Part shown: positions 778 through 18,137 of the stretch, one piece after another
How positions within the stretch are numbered: position 1 is the first letter of the stretch
Layout: every line of letters starts with the position of its first letter
Assembly: GCA_021807265.1 (NCBI GenBank)
Contig: JAKAPH010000008.1
Span: 1 to 35,483 of the forward strand
Length of the DNA: 35,483 bases
Source of the DNA: Actinomycetes bacterium
GTDB taxonomy: Bacteria > Actinomycetota > Acidimicrobiia > Acidimicrobiales > RAAP-2
Direction of reading: 5' to 3'
Notes under the pieces: model-generated
What the model was told of the DNA's origin: nothing
Database searches by the model: none
Seen by the model: only the letters and a program-made list of their open reading frames with translations
Made by a program: the position numbers and the translations under genes

Positions 778-2403
778 CTATCGCCGCGACGGCAGCGGCA
801 GCGGGGTCGCCTCGCGCAGCGCCTCGCCCGCGTGGTAGCTCGAGCGCGTGAGCGGCGAGGACTGCACGTGGCCCAGGCCCAGACGTCGGCCCCGGCTCGC
901 CAAGTCCTCGAACTCGGCCGGCTCCCACCAGCGCGCCACGGGCACGTGATCCGCCGTGGGCCGCACGTACTGGCCGATCGTCGCGATCGACACGCCGACC
1001 GCCGCCAGATCCGCCAGGGTCTCTTCGACTTCGTCAGCGGTCTCGCCGAGGCCGACCATCATGCCGGACTTGGTCGTGAGGCCCTGGGCGCCGGCGCGCG
1101 CGAGCACGGTCAAGGAGCGCAGGTAGCCCGCGCTCGGCCGGACGGCCCGTTGGAGCCGAGCGACCGTCTCAATGTTGTGGTTCACCACGTCGGGTCGGAC
1201 GTCGAGGATCAATTGCAGGCTCTCGACGTCGCCCTTGAGGTCGCTGATCAGCACCTCCACGGTTGTCTGGGGCGATCGCTCGCGAATCGCCGTGACCGTG
1301 GCGGCGATCGCGCCGGCGCCGCCGTCGGCGAGGTCGTCGCGGGCCACGCACGTGATGACCGCGTGACTGAGCCCAAGGCGCACCACCGCTTCGGCGACGC
1401 GTTCGGGCTCGGTCGGATCCAGGGGCAGGGGCTTGCGCGTATCGATGAGGCAGAACCCGCAGGCCCTCGTGCACCGCTCGCCGTTCACCATGAAGGTCGC
1501 CGTGCCCGACGCCCAACACTCGTAGATATTCGGACAGCCCGCTTCCTCACAGACCGTCACCAGGCGCAGCCCGTCGGTCAGCTTGCGTAACGACTGATAC
1601 TCCGCACCCATGTGCGCCTCGATGCGCAGCCACGACGGCTTGCGCGAGCGCAGCTCGACCCCGGCGTCGGGGTCAACGCCGGCCTTGCGCAGGCGGCGCA
1701 GCAGGGGCCGCTCCGACGAGGTGGTCGCGCCGCTGCGGTCAACCGCGGCGATCGAACCGCCCCCGCCGAAGGCCGTGTCGAGCGTCGCGCCAAGAAACTC
1801 TTCGACGTCACCGAAACTCGCCTCGAGACCGAGCGAGCGCATCGAGCCCACCGGCTTGTCGGGGATCCCGCATGGCACGATCGCGTCGAACGCCCGCAGG
1901 TCGACGTCCACGTTGAGCGCGACGCCGTGCAGCGTCCGACGAAACCCCGCGCGGTTGCGCTCGGTTCGCACGCCAACGGCCGCGATCTTGACCGGTCGCT
2001 CGTCGAGCCGGGCCCAGACGCCCGGGTAGCCCTCGAGGCGACCCACACGACCAAGGCGGCCCTCGGGGTCGAAGTGGCTCACCGTGGCGATGACCGCATC
2101 CTCTAAGCGACCCACGTGCTCGCGTCCCGCGGCCGGCCCGTCGTCCACTGTCACGATGGCCCACGCGACGACCTGGCCGGGCCCGTGATAGGTGACATCC
2201 CCGCCGCGATCGGCCTCGACGACGTCCGCGTCGAGACTGGACGGCGGAACGAGGAAGTGCTCGGGAACGGCACGGATGCCGAGCGTGTAGGTCGGCGGGT
2301 GCTCCATCACGAGCACGTAGTCGTCGGTCGCCTCCATCCACGCGCGCTGGAGGTCATTCGCCTCGCGGAAGCTGACCCGCCCCACGTGGCGGCGCCGCAG
2401 CAT
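778..2403 (-). CDS. LipB-LipA fusion: octanoyltransferase joined to lipoyl synthase
   Basis: One 541-residue chain carries both steps of endogenous lipoate synthesis. Residues 1-215 are LipB, which moves octanoate from acyl carrier protein to a lipoyl-domain lysine. The RGGDVTYHGPGQ motif is at about 66-77, the catalytic Lys139 lies in KIAAVG and Cys178 in VPCGI. Residues about 225-541 are LipA, a radical SAM enzyme that inserts two sulfurs. The auxiliary-cluster cysteines are Cys285, Cys290 and Cys296 (Cx4Cx5C), the SAM-cluster cysteines are 311, 315 and 318 (Cx3Cx2C), and the C-terminal RSSYHA supplies the conserved serine. Both domains are intact and joined in one frame by a short linker. 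The ATG directly follows the TAG of the E2 gene with no spacer, so translation is probably coupled. LipA and LipB are usually separate proteins. Confidence 0.95.
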   Translation of the reverse strand: MLRRRHVGRVSFREANDLQRAWMEATDDYVLVMEHPPTYTLGIRAVPEHFLVPPSSLDADVVEADRGGDVTYHGPGQVVAWAIVTVDDGPAAGREHVGRLEDAVIATVSHFDPEGRLGRVGRLEGYPGVWARLDERPVKIAAVGVRTERNRAGFRRTLHGVALNVDVDLRAFDAIVPCGIPDKPVGSMRSLGLEASFGDVEEFLGATLDTAFGGGGSIAAVDRSGATTSSERPLLRRLRKAGVDPDAGVELRSRKPSWLRIEAHMGAEYQSLRKLTDGLRLVTVCEEAGCPNIYECWASGTATFMVNGERCTRACGFCLIDTRKPLPLDPTEPERVAEAVVRLGLSHAVITCVARDDLADGGAGAIAATVTAIRERSPQTTVEVLISDLKGDVESLQLILDVRPDVVNHNIETVARLQRAVRPSAGYLRSLTVLARAGAQGLTTKSGMMVGLGETADEVEETLADLAAVGVSIATIGQYVRPTADHVPVARWWEPAEFEDLASRGRRLGLGHVQSSPLTRSSYHAGEALREATPLPLPSRR

Positions 2404-3606
2404 CTAGTGCTCGCTCTCCAGGTCAAGTCCCGCGAGCAGCTCGGCGACCCGCTCGAGGTACGCCGTCGCGGTGAACGGTTCGCAGACGCGGTGGTCGAAG
2501 GACAAGCCGATGACCACGCGACGACCCACGCCGACCGACACGCCGTCGTCGAGCACGATCGGCACTCGGCGAACGGCGCCCATCGAGAGCACCGCCACTT
2601 CGGGCTGGATGATGATCGGATTCGTCCAGAGCGAGTTCGGTCCGGTCGGACCCACGAGGGTGAACGTCCCGCCCATCAGGTCATCAGTGGTGAGCTGGCG
2701 CGTCGAGACCCGTTCGAAGAGCTCGTGCACGCGTCGAGCGAGAGCTCGAAGCGTCAAGCCGGCGGCCGCGTGCACGACCGGCACGAGCATGCCGTCGCGC
2801 AGGACCTCGCGCATGAACCCGAGGTTCACGGTTCGGTGCACGACCAGCTCGTCGCCCGCGAACGTGGCGTTCAGGAATTCGAATTCGCCCAGCGCCCGAA
2901 CAGCGGCCAGGCCCATGACCATCTGGTCCGATATCTCGACACCGTCGCGGGTACGTCGGCCCAGCTCGTCGAGCTGATCGAAGATCGACGCGTCGACCTC
3001 GATCGCCACGAAACCGTGCGGCGTGCTCTGGGAAGAGAGTGTCATGTGCTGGCCCATCCGGCGAAGGCCGTTGGACAGCGGCACCACTTCCTCGTCCGTC
3101 GGACCGTTGGCGACGGCCCGTTCGGCGTCTCGGCGCGTGATTGCGCCCCCCGGCCCCGACCCGTGGACCTTCGTCGGTTCGACCCCGCCGTCGGCGAGGA
3201 TCCGGCGCACGACCGGTGACATCACCACACCGGCGACCCGCTCACCCGGCGCCGCCGGGGCGTCGCTCGTGGGCGCTGGCGCGCTCGGTGCTGGCGCGCT
3301 CGGTGCTGGCGCGGGCACGCTGGGCGCGCTCGGCGCTGCCGCCGCCGGCGGCGCCACGGAACCCGCTACGGCGTTCTCGTCGATGACGGCCACGCGTGAC
3401 CCGGTCTCAACCGTGTCGCCTTCGGCGGCCAGAATTTCAGTCAGCACTCCCGCTGCGGGCGAGGGCATCTCGGAGTCGACCTTGTCGGTCGAGACCTCAA
3501 AGAGCGGCTCGTCACGGGCGACCGAGTCGCCAACCTTCTTGAACCACCGAGTAATGATCCCCTCGGTAACCGATTCGCCCAGTGACGGCAGCGTGACATC
3601 AGCCAA
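2404..3606 (-). CDS. Dihydrolipoamide acyltransferase, E2 of a 2-oxoacid dehydrogenase complex
   Basis: The 400-residue protein has the E2 order of parts. A lipoyl domain occupies residues 1-77, with the modified Lys42 in STDKVDSE. An Ala/Pro linker spans about 80-125, a peripheral subunit-binding domain about 128-165 (SPVVRRILAD, GPGGAITRRD), and a catalytic acyltransferase domain about 170-400. It would carry acyl groups on lipoyl-lysine from E1 to CoA and is reoxidised by the E3 encoded just upstream. One oddity: the catalytic HxxxDG motif reads H372-R-V-C-E376-P377, keeping His but changing Asp-Gly to Glu-Pro. No E1 gene is in the window, so pyruvate, 2-oxoglutarate and branched-chain 2-oxoacids remain possible substrates. 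It overlaps lpd by 8 nt and abuts lipBA. Confidence 0.9.
   Translation of the reverse strand: MADVTLPSLGESVTEGIITRWFKKVGDSVARDEPLFEVSTDKVDSEMPSPAAGVLTEILAAEGDTVETGSRVAVIDENAVAGSVAPPAAAAPSAPSVPAPAPSAPAPSAPAPTSDAPAAPGERVAGVVMSPVVRRILADGGVEPTKVHGSGPGGAITRRDAERAVANGPTDEEVVPLSNGLRRMGQHMTLSSQSTPHGFVAIEVDASIFDQLDELGRRTRDGVEISDQMVMGLAAVRALGEFEFLNATFAGDELVVHRTVNLGFMREVLRDGMLVPVVHAAAGLTLRALARRVHELFERVSTRQLTTDDLMGGTFTLVGPTGPNSLWTNPIIIQPEVAVLSMGAVRRVPIVLDDGVSVGVGRRVVIGLSFDHRVCEPFTATAYLERVAELLAGLDLESEH
3275..3313. repeat. 15-bp tandem repeat, 2.6 copies, in the E2 linker
   Basis: The unit gctggcgcgctcggt occurs at 3275-3289 and 3290-3304, with a partial third copy at 3305-3313. It lies in frame within the E2 gene and encodes repeated Ser-Ala-Pro-Ala-Pro in the flexible interdomain linker. 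Its copy number could vary between strains without breaking the frame. Confidence 0.85.
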
Positions 3607-5014
3607 CGTGGAGCCCCCTCCCAGCTAGCGCCAACAGCGTCTCGCCGAAGGTCTCCGACAACGACGGGTGCGGCTGAATCAGCGCGGCGGCCTCTTCGGC
3701 CGTCGCCTCCCAGTTCACGGCGTAGTAGCCAGCGCCGAGCTGCTCGGTCACCCACGGCCCCGCCATGTGCACGCCGAGGATCTGTCCGGCCGTTCCGTCA
3801 GCGCGCTTCTCAGCGATGATCTTGACGACCCCTTCAGTCTCGCCAATGATCTGGGCGCGGCTGTTGCCACCGAAGGGGTCCTTCTTCACGACGACGTCGT
3901 AACCCCGCTCCTTGGCCGCGGCCTCGGTCAGGCCGACGAAGGCGACTTCGGGGTTCGAGTAGATCGCCCACGGTACGCGGTCGTAGTCCACCGGTACCAC
4001 CGGCTCGCCCAGGATCGTCTTGATCGCCACGATCGCCTCGGCGAAGCCCACGTGGGCGAGCTGGGGGGTGTTGGCGACGATGTCGCCGATGGCGTAGACG
4101 TTGGGGTTCGCGGTGCGCATCGAGGAGTTCGCGACGACGAAGCCCCGGTCGTTGATTTCGACACCGGTTCCGTCACCGAGCAGGCCCTCACTGCGCGGGC
4201 GCCGGCCGACGGCGAGCACCACGACCTCGACGACGACGTCGTCGCCGCCCTCGACGTGCACGGCCGTCTTACCCTTGGCGGGCGTGTGGCCGGTGACGTT
4301 CACGCCAGCGCGCACCTCGATCCCGCGCTTCTTGAAGGAGCGCTGCACGACGCTCACCACTTCGCTGTCACAGCCCGCGAGAATCGTCGGCAGACCTTCG
4401 AGGACGGTCACCGTCGCGCCCATGTCCGACAGCATCGAGGCGAACTCACAGCCGATCGCCCCGCCGCCGATCACCGCGGCGCTCGCGGGCAGGGTGTCGA
4501 GGTCCAAGAACTCGTCTGAGGTCAGTACGACCTTGCCGTCGACGTCAAAGCCGGGCAGGGTCCGCGGGACCGAGCCCGCCGCCAGGATGACGTTGGTCCC
4601 CTTCGCCTCGACGCCGGCGTCGGCCCCGTCGAGCACGCGAACGACCTGGTCCGCGTCGAGTCGCGCGGTACCTTCGAAGATGGTCACCTTGCGACCCTTG
4701 AGGAGGCCCGACAGGCCCTTGTGCAGCTTGTCGACGACCTCGTTCTTGCGAGCCTGGCTCACCGAGAAGTCCACCGACACCGCGCCGGTGCCGATGCCGA
4801 AGTTGCTGGCGTGTTCGATCGTGCGGCGCACGTGGGCCGTCTCGAGGAACTCCTTGGCCGGTACGCAGCCCCGGTGCAGGCAGGTCCCGCCGACCTTGTC
4901 CCGCTCGATGAGTGCAACATTGAGTCCCGCCGCGGCCCCGTAGAGCGCAGCGGCGTAGCCGCCGGGGCCACCTCCGATGATCACAACGTCAAACTGCTGG
5001 ACCTCGTTTGTCAC
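3599..5014 (-). CDS. lpd: Dihydrolipoyl dehydrogenase (E3)
   Basis: The 471-residue flavoprotein reoxidises dihydrolipoamide on E2 with NAD+. The FAD-binding GGGPGGYAAAL motif is near residue 14. The redox disulfide is in GGTCLHRGCVPAK, which has the Cx4C spacing of the family. An NAD-binding GGGAIGCEFA motif and a second flavin motif, YAIGDI, follow. The C-terminal dimer-interface motif HPSLSE carries the catalytic His-Glu pair. Length is normal for the family. The start is GTG at 5014 with AAGGGA 7 nt upstream, so this gene has a leader, unlike many others here. It is the first gene of the lpd-E2-lipBA operon and overlaps the E2 gene by 8 nt. Confidence 0.95.
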   Translation of the reverse strand: MTNEVQQFDVVIIGGGPGGYAAALYGAAAGLNVALIERDKVGGTCLHRGCVPAKEFLETAHVRRTIEHASNFGIGTGAVSVDFSVSQARKNEVVDKLHKGLSGLLKGRKVTIFEGTARLDADQVVRVLDGADAGVEAKGTNVILAAGSVPRTLPGFDVDGKVVLTSDEFLDLDTLPASAAVIGGGAIGCEFASMLSDMGATVTVLEGLPTILAGCDSEVVSVVQRSFKKRGIEVRAGVNVTGHTPAKGKTAVHVEGGDDVVVEVVVLAVGRRPRSEGLLGDGTGVEINDRGFVVANSSMRTANPNVYAIGDIVANTPQLAHVGFAEAIVAIKTILGEPVVPVDYDRVPWAIYSNPEVAFVGLTEAAAKERGYDVVVKKDPFGGNSRAQIIGETEGVVKIIAEKRADGTAGQILGVHMAGPWVTEQLGAGYYAVNWEATAEEAAALIQPHPSLSETFGETLLALAGRGLHVG

Positions 5015-5095: not shown

Positions 5096-5533
5096 CTAGC
5101 GCTGTTGGCCCTGTTGACGGTCGGCCGCCGCCGTGGCGAGTTCGTCGACGAATTCGTTCATCGGATCGCCGGCGTGGCCCCGCACCCAGGAGAAGGTGAC
5201 CGTGCGCTCGCCGCGCAGCGTGAGGTCGAACAGGGGCTCCCAGAGATCGCGGTTCGCCACGGGCTGACCCTGGGAGTTCTTCCATCCCCGCCGCAGCCAG
5301 CCGACGTACCAGTGGTCGTTGAAGCACTTCACCACGTAGGTCGAGTCGCTCACGATCTCCACGTCGCCGTCGGGATTGGCCCGCAGGGCCTCGAGGACCG
5401 CGCGAAGCTCCATCCGCTGGTTCGTCGTGCGCGGCTCGGCGCCGCTCGCGTAGCCCTCCACGCCGCGCGCCCACGCCCAGCCGCCCGGTCCGGGGTTGCC
5501 CCGGCAGGCGCCGTCGGTGTGAATCCGGATCAC
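5096..5533 (-). CDS. rnhA: Ribonuclease HI
   Basis: This enzyme cleaves the RNA strand of RNA-DNA hybrids using a metal-binding carboxylate cluster. From the GTG at 5533 the protein is 145 residues, a normal RNase HI length, and starts VIRIHTDGACRGNPGPGGW, holding the first catalytic Asp. Other signature parts are TTNQRMELRAVLEAL (catalytic Glu), VSDSTYVVKCF (Asp), and VRGHAGDPMNEFVDELA (His loop and last Asp). The frame stays open further upstream, but that extension would run antiparallel into the regulator gene and lacks family residues. The GTG overlaps the TGA of the upstream Rrf2-type gene as GTGA, so the two are translationally coupled. Confidence 0.93.
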   Translation of the reverse strand: MIRIHTDGACRGNPGPGGWAWARGVEGYASGAEPRTTNQRMELRAVLEALRANPDGDVEIVSDSTYVVKCFNDHWYVGWLRRGWKNSQGQPVANRDLWEPLFDLTLRGERTVTFSWVRGHAGDPMNEFVDELATAAADRQQGQQR

Positions 5534-5988
5534 AGCTGGCGCGTGATCCACGCGTCCTCGTCGGCGGTGAAGCGCGTTACCGCGGCCGGCAGGTCGCCCC
5601 GCAAGACCTGGCCGAGGGTCACGTGCTCGAGCACCTCGCGCAGCGCCGCACGAACGGCGACCCACACGTCACGCAGGTGTTCGGCGTCGCCGCCGTAGTT
5701 CAGGGTTTCGGGGCGCATCCCGCGGACCCCGGCCATCGGGCCGCTCACCACGCGCAGGATGTCGGCGATCATGATCGCGTCGGGGTCGTAGGCGAGCCTG
5801 AACCCCCCCTCGGGGCCCCGCTGACTGGTCACCAGGCCACCGCGTCGCAGGTCCGAGAGGATCGCCCCCAGGAACTTGGCCGGCAGCTGCTGCTCGGCGG
5901 CCAGATGCTCGGCGCTCACCGACGTATTGCTCGCCGCCAGGGTGAGGAGCGCCCGAATGGCGTACTCGGCCTTCGCGGGAATCTGCAT
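5530..5988 (-). CDS. Rrf2-family transcriptional regulator without cluster-binding cysteines
   Basis: From the ATG at 5988 the protein has 152 residues. It begins MQIPAKAEYAIRALLTLA, the usual opening of Rrf2 winged-helix regulators, and continues with AAEQQLPAKFLGAILSDLRRGGLV (recognition helix region) and the wing RGPEGGFRLA. Rrf2 members such as IscR and NsrR bind an iron-sulfur cluster through three cysteines in the segment after the wing. Here that segment (about residues 75-105) has no cysteine, and the protein has none at all. It must therefore sense something else or act without a cofactor. A CAGAAT hexamer lies exactly 6 nt before the ATG, supporting this start. The gene overlaps rnhA by 4 nt. 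Confidence 0.88.
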   Translation of the reverse strand: MQIPAKAEYAIRALLTLAASNTSVSAEHLAAEQQLPAKFLGAILSDLRRGGLVTSQRGPEGGFRLAYDPDAIMIADILRVVSGPMAGVRGMRPETLNYGGDAEHLRDVWVAVRAALREVLEHVTLGQVLRGDLPAAVTRFTADEDAWITRQL

Positions 5989-5994
5989 GGGTCC

Positions 5995-6000
5995 ATTCTG
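5995..6000 (-). promoter_or_regulatory. Leaderless -10 hexamer of the Rrf2-type gene
   Basis: On the minus strand CAGAAT is followed by 6 nt and then the ATG at 5988. This matches the spacing seen at other genes of the window, with C in place of the first T. Confidence 0.4.
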
Positions 6001-6091
6001 CCCGAGTCGACGGACCCCGCCGGGTAATCGACCGCGGCGACGGGAATCCGGTGGCGCCGTCCGCACAACTCGCGGCGCCCAGCGTCAGCCG

Positions 6092-13178: not shown

Positions 13179-13907
13179 TTACAGCGGCGCCGACTCGCGG
13201 AAGGGTTCGTACCCGTCTCGCTCGAGTACCTCGGCGAGTTCGGGACCGCCCGTCGCCACGACGCGGCCGCCACTCACCACGTGAATCACGGACGGCGTCA
13301 GCTCGTGCAGTAGGCGACGGAAGTGGGTGATCGCGAGCACGCCGCACCCCCACTCGTCCGTCGAGGCCGCCAGACGGCGCGCCACGGCACCGAGCGCGTC
13401 GACGTCGAGGCCCGAGTCAATCTCGTCCAGGACGGCGAAGCGGGGCCGCAGGATACCGAACTGGACCATCTCGGCGCGCTTGCGCTCGCCGCCGGACAGG
13501 TCCACGTTGACGAATCGCTCGAGGAGCTCGGGGCGCAGGTCGACGCGCCGCACCTCCCAGGCCATGCGCTCGTGCAGCCCGGCGCGCTCGGCGCCCGCTG
13601 CCTCGAGCACGTCGATGAGCCGCACGCCCGGTACTTCCATCGGCTGCTGCATCGCCAGGAAGAGCCCCGCGCGCTCGCGGTCGGTCGCCGAGAGCGACAG
13701 CAGCTCGACGCCATCGATCGTGACGGACCCGTCGAGCACCTCGTAGGCCGGGTGGCCTGAGAGCGCGTGGGCGAGCGTGGACTTGCCCGAGCCGTTCGGG
13801 CCCATGATCACGTGCACCTCGCCCGAGTGCATGGTCAGGTCGAAGCCCCGCAGGACCTCCTTGCCACCCACGGCCACGCGCAGCCCCGAGATCGTCAAGG
13901 TCGTCAT
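13179..13907 (-). CDS. sufC: SufC ATPase, copy 2
   Basis: The second SufC-type ABC ATPase, 242 residues. Walker A is GPNGSGKST, the Q-loop LAMQQPMEVPGV, the signature LSGGERKRAEMVQ, Walker B FAVLDEIDSGLD and the switch His is in ITHFRRLLHEL. It is complete and differs clearly in sequence from copy 1, so the two are not a recent duplication. It is the last gene of the sufD-Rieske-sufC2 string, and its ATG overlaps the Rieske TGA as ATGA. By position it is the expected partner of SufB and SufD in this cell; which SufC actually enters the complex cannot be told from sequence. Confidence 0.92.
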   Translation of the reverse strand: MTTLTISGLRVAVGGKEVLRGFDLTMHSGEVHVIMGPNGSGKSTLAHALSGHPAYEVLDGSVTIDGVELLSLSATDRERAGLFLAMQQPMEVPGVRLIDVLEAAGAERAGLHERMAWEVRRVDLRPELLERFVNVDLSGGERKRAEMVQFGILRPRFAVLDEIDSGLDVDALGAVARRLAASTDEWGCGVLAITHFRRLLHELTPSVIHVVSGGRVVATGGPELAEVLERDGYEPFRESAPL

Positions 13908-14218
13908 GGGATTGTCACCTCCACCCGTCCATCGCGCACCGCCACGTCGTAGCGCGCGACCGGCCGGGTCGCGGGAAACGACTGGGGCGTGCCGTCAGTG
14001 AGGTCGAACATCGCACCGTGGCGAGCGCACTCGATCGTCCGGTCCTCGGCGTCAACTTCGCCTTGGGCGAGGCTGTAGTCCTCGTGGCTGCACCGGTCGT
14101 CGAGCACGTAGAAGTCGTCCTCGATGCGAACGATGACCAGCGTGCGCGCGCCGACTCGAATCTGGCGGGCCTCGCCGCTCGCGAAGTCATCGGCCGCGCC
14201 CACATCCTGGCCGCTCAC
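13904..14218 (-). CDS. Rieske-type ferredoxin in the suf operon
   Basis: A 104-residue soluble [2Fe-2S] protein. The Rieske ligands are C-S-H in DRCSHEDYSL and C-A-R-H in IECARHGAMFD. The spacing and the following GxxFDLxxG pattern match ferredoxin subunits of ring-hydroxylating dioxygenases and NirD-like proteins. The GTG at 14218 overlaps the sufD TGA as GTGA, and the gene overlaps sufC2 by 4 nt, so all three are tightly coupled. As I recall, a similar ferredoxin sits between sufD and sufC in many actinobacteria; it may bring electrons or serve as a cluster acceptor, but its role is not established. The frame is open further upstream but that part is the sufD antiframe. Confidence 0.9.
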   Translation of the reverse strand: MSGQDVGAADDFASGEARQIRVGARTLVIVRIEDDFYVLDDRCSHEDYSLAQGEVDAEDRTIECARHGAMFDLTDGTPQSFPATRPVARYDVAVRDGRVEVTIP

Positions 14219-15453
14219 GCGATCACCGGGACGGACTGGAGCGCGAGCGCGACGTCGCCCTCCACCAAGCGGGCGAGCGCCGGGGGCAGGGCGTCGAGCA
14301 TCTCGAGGAAGAACCCCTGGATCATCAGCCGCTCGGCGTCGCTTCGGGTCACACCGCGTGACTCGAGGTACCACCGCTGCAGGGCGTTGAGCGGACCCAC
14401 GCTCGACGCGTGCGCGCAGACCACGTCGTTCTCGCGGATGTCGAGGTTGGGCACGCTGTCGGCGTGGGCGTTCGGCGAGAGCAGGAGGTTGTGATTGGTC
14501 TGACGCGCGTCGGTTCGCTTGGCGCCCTTTTCGATCTCGATGAGCCCGGTGTAGACCGAGCGCGCCGTGTCCGCGACGGCGCCCTTGGAGAGCAGCGTCG
14601 AGCGGGACCGCGGCGCCCGGTGGAACTGGTGGGTGCGAAAGTCGTGCACCTGGGAACCCGAACCGAAGAACGTGGTGCGCAGTTCGTTCTGCGCGCCCGT
14701 CGCGCGAAGGTCCGCGTCATTGCGCGACCGGTCGTAGTGAGCACCCATGCCGAGCACGGCCTGGCTGAGGCGACCATCGCGCTCGAGGAGTCCCGTGGTG
14801 CGAGCCACGTGCCAGGTCGTGGCGTCGAGACGCTGGTAGGTCACCAGTCGCAGCGACGCGTTGTCCGCGACGCGGTACTCGCTCACCGGCACGACGATCG
14901 CGCCGGCGCCGCCCTCGTAGTACTCGACGACCGTCGCGTTCGCGCCCCGCTCGAGCACGAGGTGCGTGCGAGGGAACGACGCCGTCGCGTTGGCCGAGTG
15001 GATGATGACGATCGGCCCGTCCACGACCGTGTTCGCCGCCACCGTCACGACAACCGTCGCCGGGCACAGTGCGGCGTTGGCGAGGGCGAACGCGTCACTG
15101 GCGTAGCGCTCGACGGGGTCATCACCGGCGATCGTCAACGAGGTGGGGTTCAAGTCGACCGTGACGCCGTCGATCGGATCACCGATGTCAACGAGGAAGC
15201 CGTCGACCACCCGCACGACGCTCGCGGCCAATGCCCCGAGGGCGATCGCGAAGTCCGACGCTGGTGCGAGGGTTGGCGTCGCGGGCACGGCGAAGCGGTC
15301 GAGGTCGAGCTCGGCGAGCGGCGCGTAGCGCCAGACCTCGTCGGTCGTGGTGGGCAGCCCGATCGATTCGAAGTTGGACCAGGCGCGTCCGCGCTCCTCC
15401 GAATCCGGGCGACTACTGATAAATGAGGTTGCGGATTCAGCGAAGGTTGTCAT
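14215..15453 (-). CDS. sufD: SufD scaffold subunit
   Basis: The 412-residue protein pairs with SufB and SufC to assemble iron-sulfur clusters. It begins MTTFAESATSF and shows the beta-helix core typical of SufB/SufD: VVDGPIVIIHSAN, LVLERGANATVVEYYEGG, FFGSGSQVHDFRTHQFH, and SVYTGLIEIEKGAKRTDARQTNHNLLLSPNA. The conserved ENDVVCAHASSVG holds the histidine that lies near the cluster-forming site. The final PPALARLVEGDV region is normal. The frame is open far upstream, but the SufD-like sequence begins at the ATG at 15453. No clear Shine-Dalgarno sequence precedes it. It is separated from sufB by the crotonase gene on the other strand. Confidence 0.93.
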   Translation of the reverse strand: MTTFAESATSFISSRPDSEERGRAWSNFESIGLPTTTDEVWRYAPLAELDLDRFAVPATPTLAPASDFAIALGALAASVVRVVDGFLVDIGDPIDGVTVDLNPTSLTIAGDDPVERYASDAFALANAALCPATVVVTVAANTVVDGPIVIIHSANATASFPRTHLVLERGANATVVEYYEGGAGAIVVPVSEYRVADNASLRLVTYQRLDATTWHVARTTGLLERDGRLSQAVLGMGAHYDRSRNDADLRATGAQNELRTTFFGSGSQVHDFRTHQFHRAPRSRSTLLSKGAVADTARSVYTGLIEIEKGAKRTDARQTNHNLLLSPNAHADSVPNLDIRENDVVCAHASSVGPLNALQRWYLESRGVTRSDAERLMIQGFFLEMLDALPPALARLVEGDVALALQSVPVIA

Positions 15454-15507
15454 AGTTAAGAGCGTTAGCAGTGTAATGGGCCGGTCGACCACGTCGATCT
15501 CCCGGTC

Positions 15508-15513
15508 TAGTCT
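15508..15513 (+). promoter_or_regulatory. -10 hexamer of the crotonase gene
   Basis: TAGTCT is followed about 10 nt later by the Shine-Dalgarno AGGGAGG (15524-15530) and the ATG at 15536. This gene therefore seems to have a short leader. Confidence 0.4.
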
Positions 15514-15535
15514 TCGATCGGACAGGGAGGACGAC

Positions 15536-16351
15536 ATGGCATTCACCTCGACGGTGCTGACCATCGAGCACATTGGCGCCGTGGCCACGCTGTGGCTCGA
15601 CCGGGTCGAACAACGCAACGCAATGGGTCGGGCGTTCTGGGAGGACCTGGCGCGCGCGGCCGCGGCGATCCGCGCCGACGGCGAGGTGCGCGTGCTAGTG
15701 ATCGCGGCCAAGGGCCCGCATTTCACGGTTGGCCTCGATCTGAAGGAGATGGCCGGCGGCCTCATGGGCAGCAGCGACGCATCGTCGCCCGCGAAACGCA
15801 ACGCCGCACGATACGAGGCGGTGCGCGTCATGCAAGACGCCATCAATTCGATCGCCGACCTCCCCTTCCCGGTGATCGCCGCGGTGCACGGGTACTGCAT
15901 CGGCGGCGGGGTCGACCTGATCACGGCCTGTGACATTCGCCTCGCCGATCCCTCGGCCACGTTTTCGGTCCGTGAGACCAAGGTCGCCATCGTCGCCGAC
16001 CTGGGAACGCTCCAGCGCCTGCCGCGGATCATCGGGGCCGGGCACGTCGCCGAACTCGCCTACACGGGCATGGACATCGACGCCGCGCGCGCGGCCGCGA
16101 TTGGCCTCGTCAACCGCGTCGCCGACGACGTGCTCGCCGACGCGTACGAGCTCGCCGAGCGGATTGCCGCGAACTCACCGCTCGCGGTCCAGGGCACCAA
16201 AGCGGTGCTCGCGGCCAACGACGGGCGCACCGTGGCCGAGGGCCTCGAGTTCGTCGCCAACTGGAACACGCTCTACCTGCGAAGCGATGACCTCACCGAG
16301 GCGATGACCGCCTTCGTCGAACGCCGCCCGCCCACCTTCACGGGCAGCTAG
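15536..16351 (+). CDS. Crotonase, delta3,5-delta2,4-dienoyl-CoA isomerase-like
   Basis: The 271-residue protein is of the enoyl-CoA hydratase/isomerase superfamily. CIGGGVDLITACDIRLAD and FSVRETKVAIVADLGTLQRLPRIIG carry the Asp, Glu and Asp that correspond to the three acidic residues of mammalian dienoyl-CoA isomerase. A plain enoyl-CoA hydratase would have Glu at two of these places. The likely role is moving double bonds during oxidation of unsaturated fatty acids, though substrate choice in crotonases is hard to predict. A strong AGGGAGG stands 5 nt before the ATG. It is inserted between sufB and sufD on the opposite strand. Its TAG and the TAG of the converging four-cysteine gene share the tetramer CTAG at 16348-16351. 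Confidence 0.88.
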   Translation: MAFTSTVLTIEHIGAVATLWLDRVEQRNAMGRAFWEDLARAAAAIRADGEVRVLVIAAKGPHFTVGLDLKEMAGGLMGSSDASSPAKRNAARYEAVRVMQDAINSIADLPFPVIAAVHGYCIGGGVDLITACDIRLADPSATFSVRETKVAIVADLGTLQRLPRIIGAGHVAELAYTGMDIDAARAAAIGLVNRVADDVLADAYELAERIAANSPLAVQGTKAVLAANDGRTVAEGLEFVANWNTLYLRSDDLTEAMTAFVERRPPTFTGS

Positions 16352-16695
16352 CGGCGCCAGAAACGCCAGTTGCGCCGGTTGCGGCGCTCCTCCTCGTCGA
16401 GCTGGCGACGCCGCTCGTTCACCAGCTCGGGTGCGACGGCGTTGACGATCTCGCTCGCTTGATCGAGCAGCGCCCGTCGGTCATCGAGGGGCACGTCGGT
16501 CTCGGGCGGCGCCTCGACCGGGCGGTCCACCAACGAACCGTGGGCCCACCCGACGTCGGCGAACCGGCGCTCGTAGGTCACGCACCCCTCGGGGCACGAC
16601 CACGGCTGATCGGGCGCGTTGCCGAGCACGCAGAACCTCGCGACCTCGCCCGAGCGGTACGTACGGCTCTGAAAGTGCTTGCACTCCTCGCGCAT
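16348..16695 (-). CDS. Small four-cysteine protein downstream of sufB
   Basis: I do not recognise this 115-residue protein. From the ATG at 16695 the N-terminal 40 residues hold four cysteines, Cys5, Cys22, Cys34 and Cys38 (Cx16Cx11Cx3C, the last pair in CPEGC), plus His7. This could bind zinc or an iron-sulfur cluster. The middle is Pro/Asp/Glu-rich. A helical segment (DDRRALLDQASEIVNAVAPELVNERRRQLDEEE) is followed by a very basic Arg/Trp tail ending RNRRNWRFWRR. It begins 41 nt after the sufB stop on the same strand and is probably co-transcribed. A GTG two codons upstream is an alternative start. Position and cysteines suggest a suf-related role, which is inference. Confidence 0.75.
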   Translation of the reverse strand: MREECKHFQSRTYRSGEVARFCVLGNAPDQPWSCPEGCVTYERRFADVGWAHGSLVDRPVEAPPETDVPLDDRRALLDQASEIVNAVAPELVNERRRQLDEEERRNRRNWRFWRR

Positions 16696-16736
16696 CCCCA
16701 CCGGATCATCCTTCCACGGCCGCCGAGGGTCGGCGC

Positions 16737-18137
16737 CTAGCCGACGGAGCCTTCCATCTGCAGTTCGATGAGGCGCGACCACTCGACCGCGTACTCCATG
16801 GGCAGCGTGCGCGTGACGGGCTCGATGAACCCGTTGACGATCATGCCCATCGCCTGGCTCTCGGTCAGGCCGCGGCTCATGAGGTAGAACAACTGGTCGT
16901 CGCCGATCTTCGAGACCGTCGCCTCGTGGCCGATCGAGGCGTCCTGCTCGCCAACCTCCATGTAGGGCTTGGTCTCGGACGTCGAGAACTCGTCGAGGAT
17001 GAGCGCGTCACAGCGCACGAAACTCTTCGCGCCGGTCGCGCCCTCGTCGACCTTCACCAGTCCGCGGTAGGTCGTGAGTCCCCCGTCCTTGGAGATCGAC
17101 TTCGACACGATCGTCGAGGTCGTCTCGGGCGCGGCGTGCACCATCTTGGCCCCGGCGTCTTGAACCTGGCCTGGTCCCGCGTAGGCGACCGACAGCACCT
17201 CGCCTGAGGCCTTGGGTCCCATCAGGTACACCGACGGGTACTTCATCGTGAGCCGCGAACCGATATTGCCGTCGATCCATTCGACGTGGGCCTCGGCCTC
17301 GGCGCGTGCTCGCTTGGTGACCAGGTTGTAAACGTTGTTCGACCAGTTCTGAATCGTCGTGTAGGTGATCCGTGAGCCCGGCAGGGCGACCAACTCGACG
17401 ACCGCCGAGTGCAGCGAGTCCGTCGAGTACACCGGCGCCGAGCAGCCCTCGACGTAGTGGACCTGGGACCCCTCGTCGGCGATGATCAGCGTGCGCTCGA
17501 ACTGGCCCATGTTCTCGGTGTTGATCCGGAAGTAGGCCTGCAGCGGCTGGTCGACCTTCACGCCCGGCGGCACGTAGATGAACGACCCACCGCTCCACAC
17601 CGCCGAGTTGAGCGCGGCGAACTTGTTGTCGTTGGGCGGGATGACCGTGCCGAAGTACTTGCGCACGAGGTCGGGGTACTCGCGCACCGCGGTGTCCATG
17701 TCGCAGAACAGCACGCCGAGGCGCTCGAGGTCCTCGCGGTTACGGTGAAAGACCACTTCGGACTCGTACTGTGCCGTGACCCCGGCGAGGTACTTGCGCT
17801 CGGCCTCGGGGATGCCGAGTCGCTCGTAGGTGGTCTTGATGGCGTCGGGCAGGTCCTCCCAACGATCGACCCGACCCTCGGTCGGCTTGATGTAGTAGTA
17901 GATGTCGTTGAAGTCGAGGTCCGGCATGCGGTCGGCGAACCAGGGCAGCATGGGCTTCTTCTCGAAGCGCTTGAGCGCGGCGAGGCGGAAGTCGCGCATC
18001 CACGACTCTTCGTTCTTGATCCCCGACATCTCGCGCACGATGGCCTCGTTGATGCCCTTCTTGGGCTTGAAGACCGGGATCTGCTCGTCAGACCATCCGA
18101 GCTGGTACCGACTGAAGTCCAGATTGTCAATCGTCAT
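16737..18137 (-). CDS. sufB: SufB scaffold subunit
   Basis: The 466-residue protein is the core scaffold on which SufBCD builds clusters. It has [68 protein letters not shown] and the C-terminal [21 protein letters not shown]. Cys376 and Glu405 (in GHEATVSKI) match the residues needed for cluster formation in E. coli SufB. Length is typical. A good Shine-Dalgarno, GAGGAG, stands just before the ATG, so unlike the leaderless genes here sufB has a leader. That leader contains a 21-bp palindrome. It is the first gene of the minus-strand suf set and is divergent from the oligopeptidase gene. Confidence 0.96.

Follow-up and report, generated by a model that had tools for sequence, protein, structure and literature searches.

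A lipB-lipA fusion gene that is general in one class of bacteria

The window, by which is meant the whole analysed stretch of 35,483 nucleotides, carries a gene in which lipB and lipA are joined in a single frame, and the same fusion occurs generally across one bacterial class. LipB and LipA are textbook families that normally act in sequence on the way to lipoate. Judging from its sequence, the fused chain is very probably a bifunctional octanoyltransferase-lipoyl synthase that serves several lipoyl carriers. Its parts are ordinary; their joining is unusual, and the evolutionary fixation of the fusion is unusually firm.

The fused gene, its cluster and its likely carriers

The fusion gene lies at 778..2403 on the minus strand, with an ATG start and a TAG stop, and is read as one unbroken frame of 541 amino acids; the plus-strand reading of the same interval contains stops. 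The initial annotation had described an uninterrupted LipB-LipA frame without giving a strand, and this frame is borne out on the minus strand. The LipB (octanoyltransferase) half (residues 1-213; 1765..2403, minus strand) scores 114.8 bits against the NCBIfam equivalog TIGR00214, above the cut-off of 83.55, and 88.9 bits against the Pfam family PF21948. The LipA (lipoyl synthase) half (residues 251-531; 811..1653, minus strand) scores 328.3 bits against the NCBIfam equivalog TIGR00510, above the cut-off of 310.25, and for both halves the Pfam assignment agrees with that of NCBIfam. A linker of residues 216-250 (1654..1758, minus strand) runs between them. Against a stop or frameshift between the domains, the objection foreseen by the initial annotation, stands the same single frame in 20 of 20 loci of the genus. 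An assembly error as the source of the fusion is excluded, because 19 further genomes of the genus have the same frame as this genome.

Directly upstream lies the gene for the E2 acyltransferase of a 2-oxoacid dehydrogenase (2404..3606, minus strand, TTG start), in which Pfam recognises one lipoyl domain, an E3-binding domain and a catalytic domain. Its TAG stop (2404-2406) abuts the ATG of the fusion, as had been claimed, the DNA reading GAG CAC TAG ATG CTG across the junction. A dihydrolipoyl dehydrogenase (E3) gene lies further upstream at 3599..5014 on the minus strand, with 461.1 bits against TIGR01350 (cut-off 408.8). The neighbourhood was counted over 55 distinct fused loci for which 1.5 kb or more of upstream sequence is available. 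An E2 gene is present within 4 kb upstream in 48 of these and ends no more than 60 nt away in 44, and an E3 gene is nearby in 52; the seven loci with no E2 within 4 kb have E3 upstream. Since E2 and E3 so regularly accompany it, the fused gene normally forms the end of an E3-E2-lipBA cluster. The window that encodes LipA, an iron-sulfur enzyme, also holds an Rrf2-type regulator (5530-6066, minus strand). A SUF iron-sulfur assembly cluster lies in the same window at 13179-18137 on the minus strand, with two SufB/D-type proteins, an ABC ATPase and a Rieske protein.

The genome from which the window comes is assembled to 1.64 Mb in 156 contigs and is 82% complete. The initial annotation had proposed a check for stand-alone lipA or lipB genes; a protein search detected no second LipA or LipB in the 82%-complete assembly, and the LipB family model matches it in one place only. 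A stand-alone gene may have been missed, since the genome is 82% complete. Five biotin/lipoyl domains score above cut-off in this genome, which has a second E2, of the pyruvate-dehydrogenase type, beside an E1 beta gene, and also GcvH. Given these further carriers, and since the searches detected no additional LipA or LipB, at least three carriers are probably served by the fusion, namely the adjacent E2, the second E2 and GcvH, and the earlier description of the neighbouring E2 as the fusion's own substrate is too narrow. No full-scoring enzyme of the LplA type was found in the 82%-complete genome. It does encode a diverged LplA-like protein (L224:1192-2109), which scores 24.7 bits against PF21948 (cut-off 27) and is matched by no NCBIfam model.

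Distribution and origin of the fusion

When public genomes were scanned more widely, the best 80 loci comprised 61 fused loci, 17 separate ones, one contig with LipA only and one locus (L035) broken by an assembly gap of N inside its LipB half. The 17 separate loci carry labels such as Dietzia, Rhodococcus, Nocardioides, Streptomyces and Tessaracoccus. Among the best 80, many fused loci are labelled Acidimicrobiia, Acidimicrobiales or Acidimicrobiaceae, and from these record labels we infer that the class carrying the fusion is the Acidimicrobiia. A sample of the phylum (246 genomes) has the fusion in all 25 genomes of the same class. Across the 221 genomes outside the class, 25 loci were examined, chosen as the best-scoring ones together with those having the longest open frames, and none of them is fused: LipB and LipA occupy separate frames in 18, and seven have LipA with no nearby LipB match. 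The remaining matched genomes outside the class, about 156, were judged from their match rows, among the matches listed. An independent fusion in another class was considered, and none occurs among the 25 outside-class loci examined. The search for the two-domain architecture that the initial annotation had recommended thus reveals a feature general in one bacterial class, and its novelty is less local than had been implied.

The fusion is not confined to metagenome bins, because the cultured isolate Acidiferrimicrobium sp. IK (L063) carries it. According to the match rows, each of eight plasmid records matches the query in two pieces, with a coverage of at least 80%, and one phage-labelled record has lipB and lipA in separate frames. 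A metagenome bin labelled Bifidobacterium breve (L061) is fused and clusters with the fused class in the trees of both LipA and LipB; it is probably mislabelled.

Exceptions within the class are few. A class-wide scan covered 395 genomes, 358 of which have a LipB match; nine of the matches listed have an open frame shorter than 500 aa, and eight of these were examined. Three are fused genes truncated by the edge of their contig, a fourth is a LipB half lying at such an edge, and in a fifth (G469) the frame changes close to where the LipA half begins. A truly separate lipB-lipA pair with overlapping stop and start (ATGA) was found in G318 (contig C83, L183). This genome has a fused gene besides, and in the trees its separate pair clusters with other classes, being either a transfer or contamination. 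In two genomes of one family (G351, locus L185, and G446, locus L186), LipB is followed by unrelated DNA with no LipA beside it. Their LipBs nest among the fused LipBs in the tree, a possible case of splitting of the fusion, and the fusion can be lost, since these genomes have LipB without an adjacent LipA. The LipA of G446 is on another contig, with its start at the contig end, so that either a separate or a fused LipA would be compatible with it. Among 20 genomes of the class picked for checking, eight have neither half, through loss or gaps.

Trees were made for LipA and LipB separately, using 62 representative pairs and the odd single genes. The LipA tree divides 49 fused proteins and one LipA-only row from 13 separate pairs with an SH-aLRT of 93, and the LipB tree divides 49 fused proteins and two LipB-only rows from 13 separate ones with a support of 77, both values being below the starred level of 95. 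The fused or separate label changes twice on each tree, against a mean of about 13 when the labels are shuffled. When the LipB tree is rooted at its midpoint, the separate genes fall within the fused group, and the direction of change, by fusion or by splitting, depends on where the root is placed. The simplest account of these sequences would be a single fusion event at the base of the class, followed in rare cases by splitting or loss. In unfused relatives, lipB and lipA are already adjacent. In 21 of the separate pairs examined, 17 of them from a search favouring in-frame pairs and four from the 18 pairs of the phylum sample, the two genes share a frame and are divided by exactly one stop. 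Since some neighbouring pairs share a frame in this way, loss of one stop codon would suffice, and such a loss between lipB and lipA, as neighbours within an E3-E2-lipB-lipA cluster, may have given rise to the fusion.

Conserved residues, predicted structure and proposed function

Conservation was followed in a set of 127 distinct fused proteins. The Cys/Lys pair of LipB, Lys139 (1987..1989, minus strand) and Cys178 (1870..1872, minus strand), is kept in 127 of 127. The catalytic Cys is numbered Cys176 in the LipB described in PMC9307952. Lys139, Cys178 and the RGG motif (residues 66-68) all stand at the positions given by the initial annotation, and the complete LipA that it described, with both cysteine triads and the RSS end, is likewise confirmed. 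The CX4CX5C motif of the LipA half (C285, C290 and C296; 1516..1551, minus strand), which we take to provide the ligands of the auxiliary iron-sulfur cluster, and the CX3CX2C motif (C311, C315 and C318; 1450..1473, minus strand), presumably providing those of the radical-SAM cluster, are both kept in 127 of 127. In the RSS end motif (residues 520-522; 838..846, minus strand), R520 is kept in all 127 proteins and S521 and S522 in 126 each, the lone protein without these serines being a sequence cut by a contig end.

The chemistry of the steps proposed here is established knowledge of both families, and family membership together with the conserved residues suggests that the chain performs both octanoyl transfer and sulfur insertion. 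The LipB half, aided by Lys139, would load Cys178 with octanoate from acyl carrier protein, forming a thioester, and would transfer the octanoyl group to the lysine in the lipoyl domain of a carrier. Into the octanoyl chain attached there, the LipA half would insert two sulfurs, at C6 and C8, by radical-SAM chemistry, with its auxiliary cluster as the probable sacrificial source of sulfur.

An AlphaFold model of the 541 residues, based on 81 aligned fused sequences, has a mean pLDDT of 93.3 and a pTM of 0.92, and pLDDT falls below 50 at residues 226-228 only. Because a pTM of 0.92 in a two-domain chain points to a defined relative placement, the LipB and LipA halves are predicted to pack in a defined arrangement. 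As a structural control, 21 separate lipB-lipA pairs were read through their stop and the first one was modelled, giving a pLDDT of 78.6, a pTM of 0.55 and a disordered joint. With 21 rows against 81, the alignment behind the control is shallower and also less diverse, and the domains themselves are modelled with lower confidence, so that the contrast offers only a hint that the packing is special to the fusion. Residues 1-215 of the fusion model match M. tuberculosis LipB (1w66) with a Z of 29.4 and the LipA half matches M. tuberculosis LipA (5exk) with a Z of 42.4; Foldseek agrees in matching the halves to LipB and LipA structures. Since model residues 231-536 align with residues 11-306 of 5exk, the linker's second half probably represents the former N-terminal arm of LipA, which would confine the true joint between LipB and LipA to about residues 216-230.

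Measured from BLAST ends in the 127 fused proteins, the linker has a median length of 53 residues and a range of 27-189, and it is poorly conserved overall. A motif within it, R-L-x-x-A-G-V (residues 237-243; 1675..1695, minus strand), is conserved class-wide, and its G242 is present in 94% of the 127 proteins and in 92% of the 92 most distant from that of the window. The initial annotation had suggested that fusion holds the two sites close. This idea gains partial support from the defined packing that is predicted (the control alignment having 21 rows and not 81). That the packed halves hand over the octanoylated domain between their two sites is put forward tentatively, and with somewhat more doubt than belief. 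A stronger form, in which a rigid two-site machine is fixed class-wide, with direct hand-over and the conserved linker motif keeping the sites in register, appears rather unlikely. The chances are about even that the fusion is functional but acts as a tether only, ensuring equal amounts of the two enzymes and saving a start site, while the octanoylated domain leaves and rebinds. A simple tether would fit the linker tip at 226-228 being the least confident part of the model, the wide variation in linker length and the persistence of LipB alone in two genomes of the class. However, it does not readily explain the defined packing predicted at a pTM of 0.92, the conservation of the linker motif through the class or the retention of the fusion, its catalytic residues all intact, in every one of the 127 proteins.

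The chain might also be cut after translation, or an internal start might yield a separate LipA, so that the usual two proteins do the work. The linker is indeed the least conserved and least confident stretch, as such processing might lead one to expect, but no fused locus has a stop between the halves, and the linker is partly conserved and predicted to be ordered, which makes this explanation improbable. Candidatus Actinomarina/OCS155 records (L078, L085, L088 and L092) are fused and have a strongly diverged LipB half, with 27-31% identity to that of the window. It is highly improbable that one half is a relic, the chain being in effect only LipA or only LipB with another enzyme taking the other step: the divergence of LipB in these single-cell records and the presence of the weak LplA-like protein speak for it, but that protein falls below the Pfam cut-off with no NCBIfam match, and all tested catalytic residues of LipB and LipA are kept in 127 of 127 proteins, on which basis neither half looks like a relic.

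Relation to known systems and significance

The bifunctional chain resembles known enzymes in each of its parts. Its first half shares with LipB (TIGR00214; M. tuberculosis LipB 1w66) a score above the cut-off, the Cys/Lys pair, the RGG motif and the fold, but known LipB is a separate protein of about 215-230 residues, whereas here it is joined to LipA. The second half shares with LipA (TIGR00510; M. tuberculosis LipA 5exk and human LIAS) the score, both cysteine triads, the RSS motif and the fold, but in the fusion a whole octanoyltransferase precedes the N-terminal arm. The adjacent lipB and lipA genes of Dietzia, Rhodococcus, Streptomyces and Nocardioides have the same order and belong to the same families. 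In contrast to the fusion, these and other actinobacterial pairs encode two proteins, whose read-through model reaches the lower pTM noted above from a shallower alignment.

The nearest named fusion is NF053790 of NCBIfam (bifunctional lipoate-protein ligase/lipoyl synthase), in which an attachment enzyme is likewise fused before LipA. However, the front half of NF053790 is an ATP-using LplA ligase, whereas here it is a LipB, which would draw on acyl carrier protein. The window protein fails as a member of this LplA-LipA family, scoring 344.2 bits against a cut-off of 800 and matching profile positions 329-605 (the LipA part) only, with its front half unmatched; the NF053790 cut-off was passed by none of 60 genomes of the phylum. 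Automatic protein databases are likely to flag LipB-LipA two-domain chains. No description of the LipB-LipA fusion was found in the open-licence articles searched. The fusion is not named in the accessible parts of PMC10332631, PMC6067878, PMC12246082, PMC3904984 and PMC9307952, the first of which treats other fusions, of LplA with LplB.

For the class, the fusion provides a marker character, and gene counts that expect separate lipA and lipB can misread its genomes. Whether octanoyl transfer and sulfur insertion are physically coupled is a question asked earlier of the separate enzymes. A natural, class-wide fusion of apparently single origin would be a ready substrate for testing the coupling of the two steps, and may also serve as a template for joining them in lipoate production.
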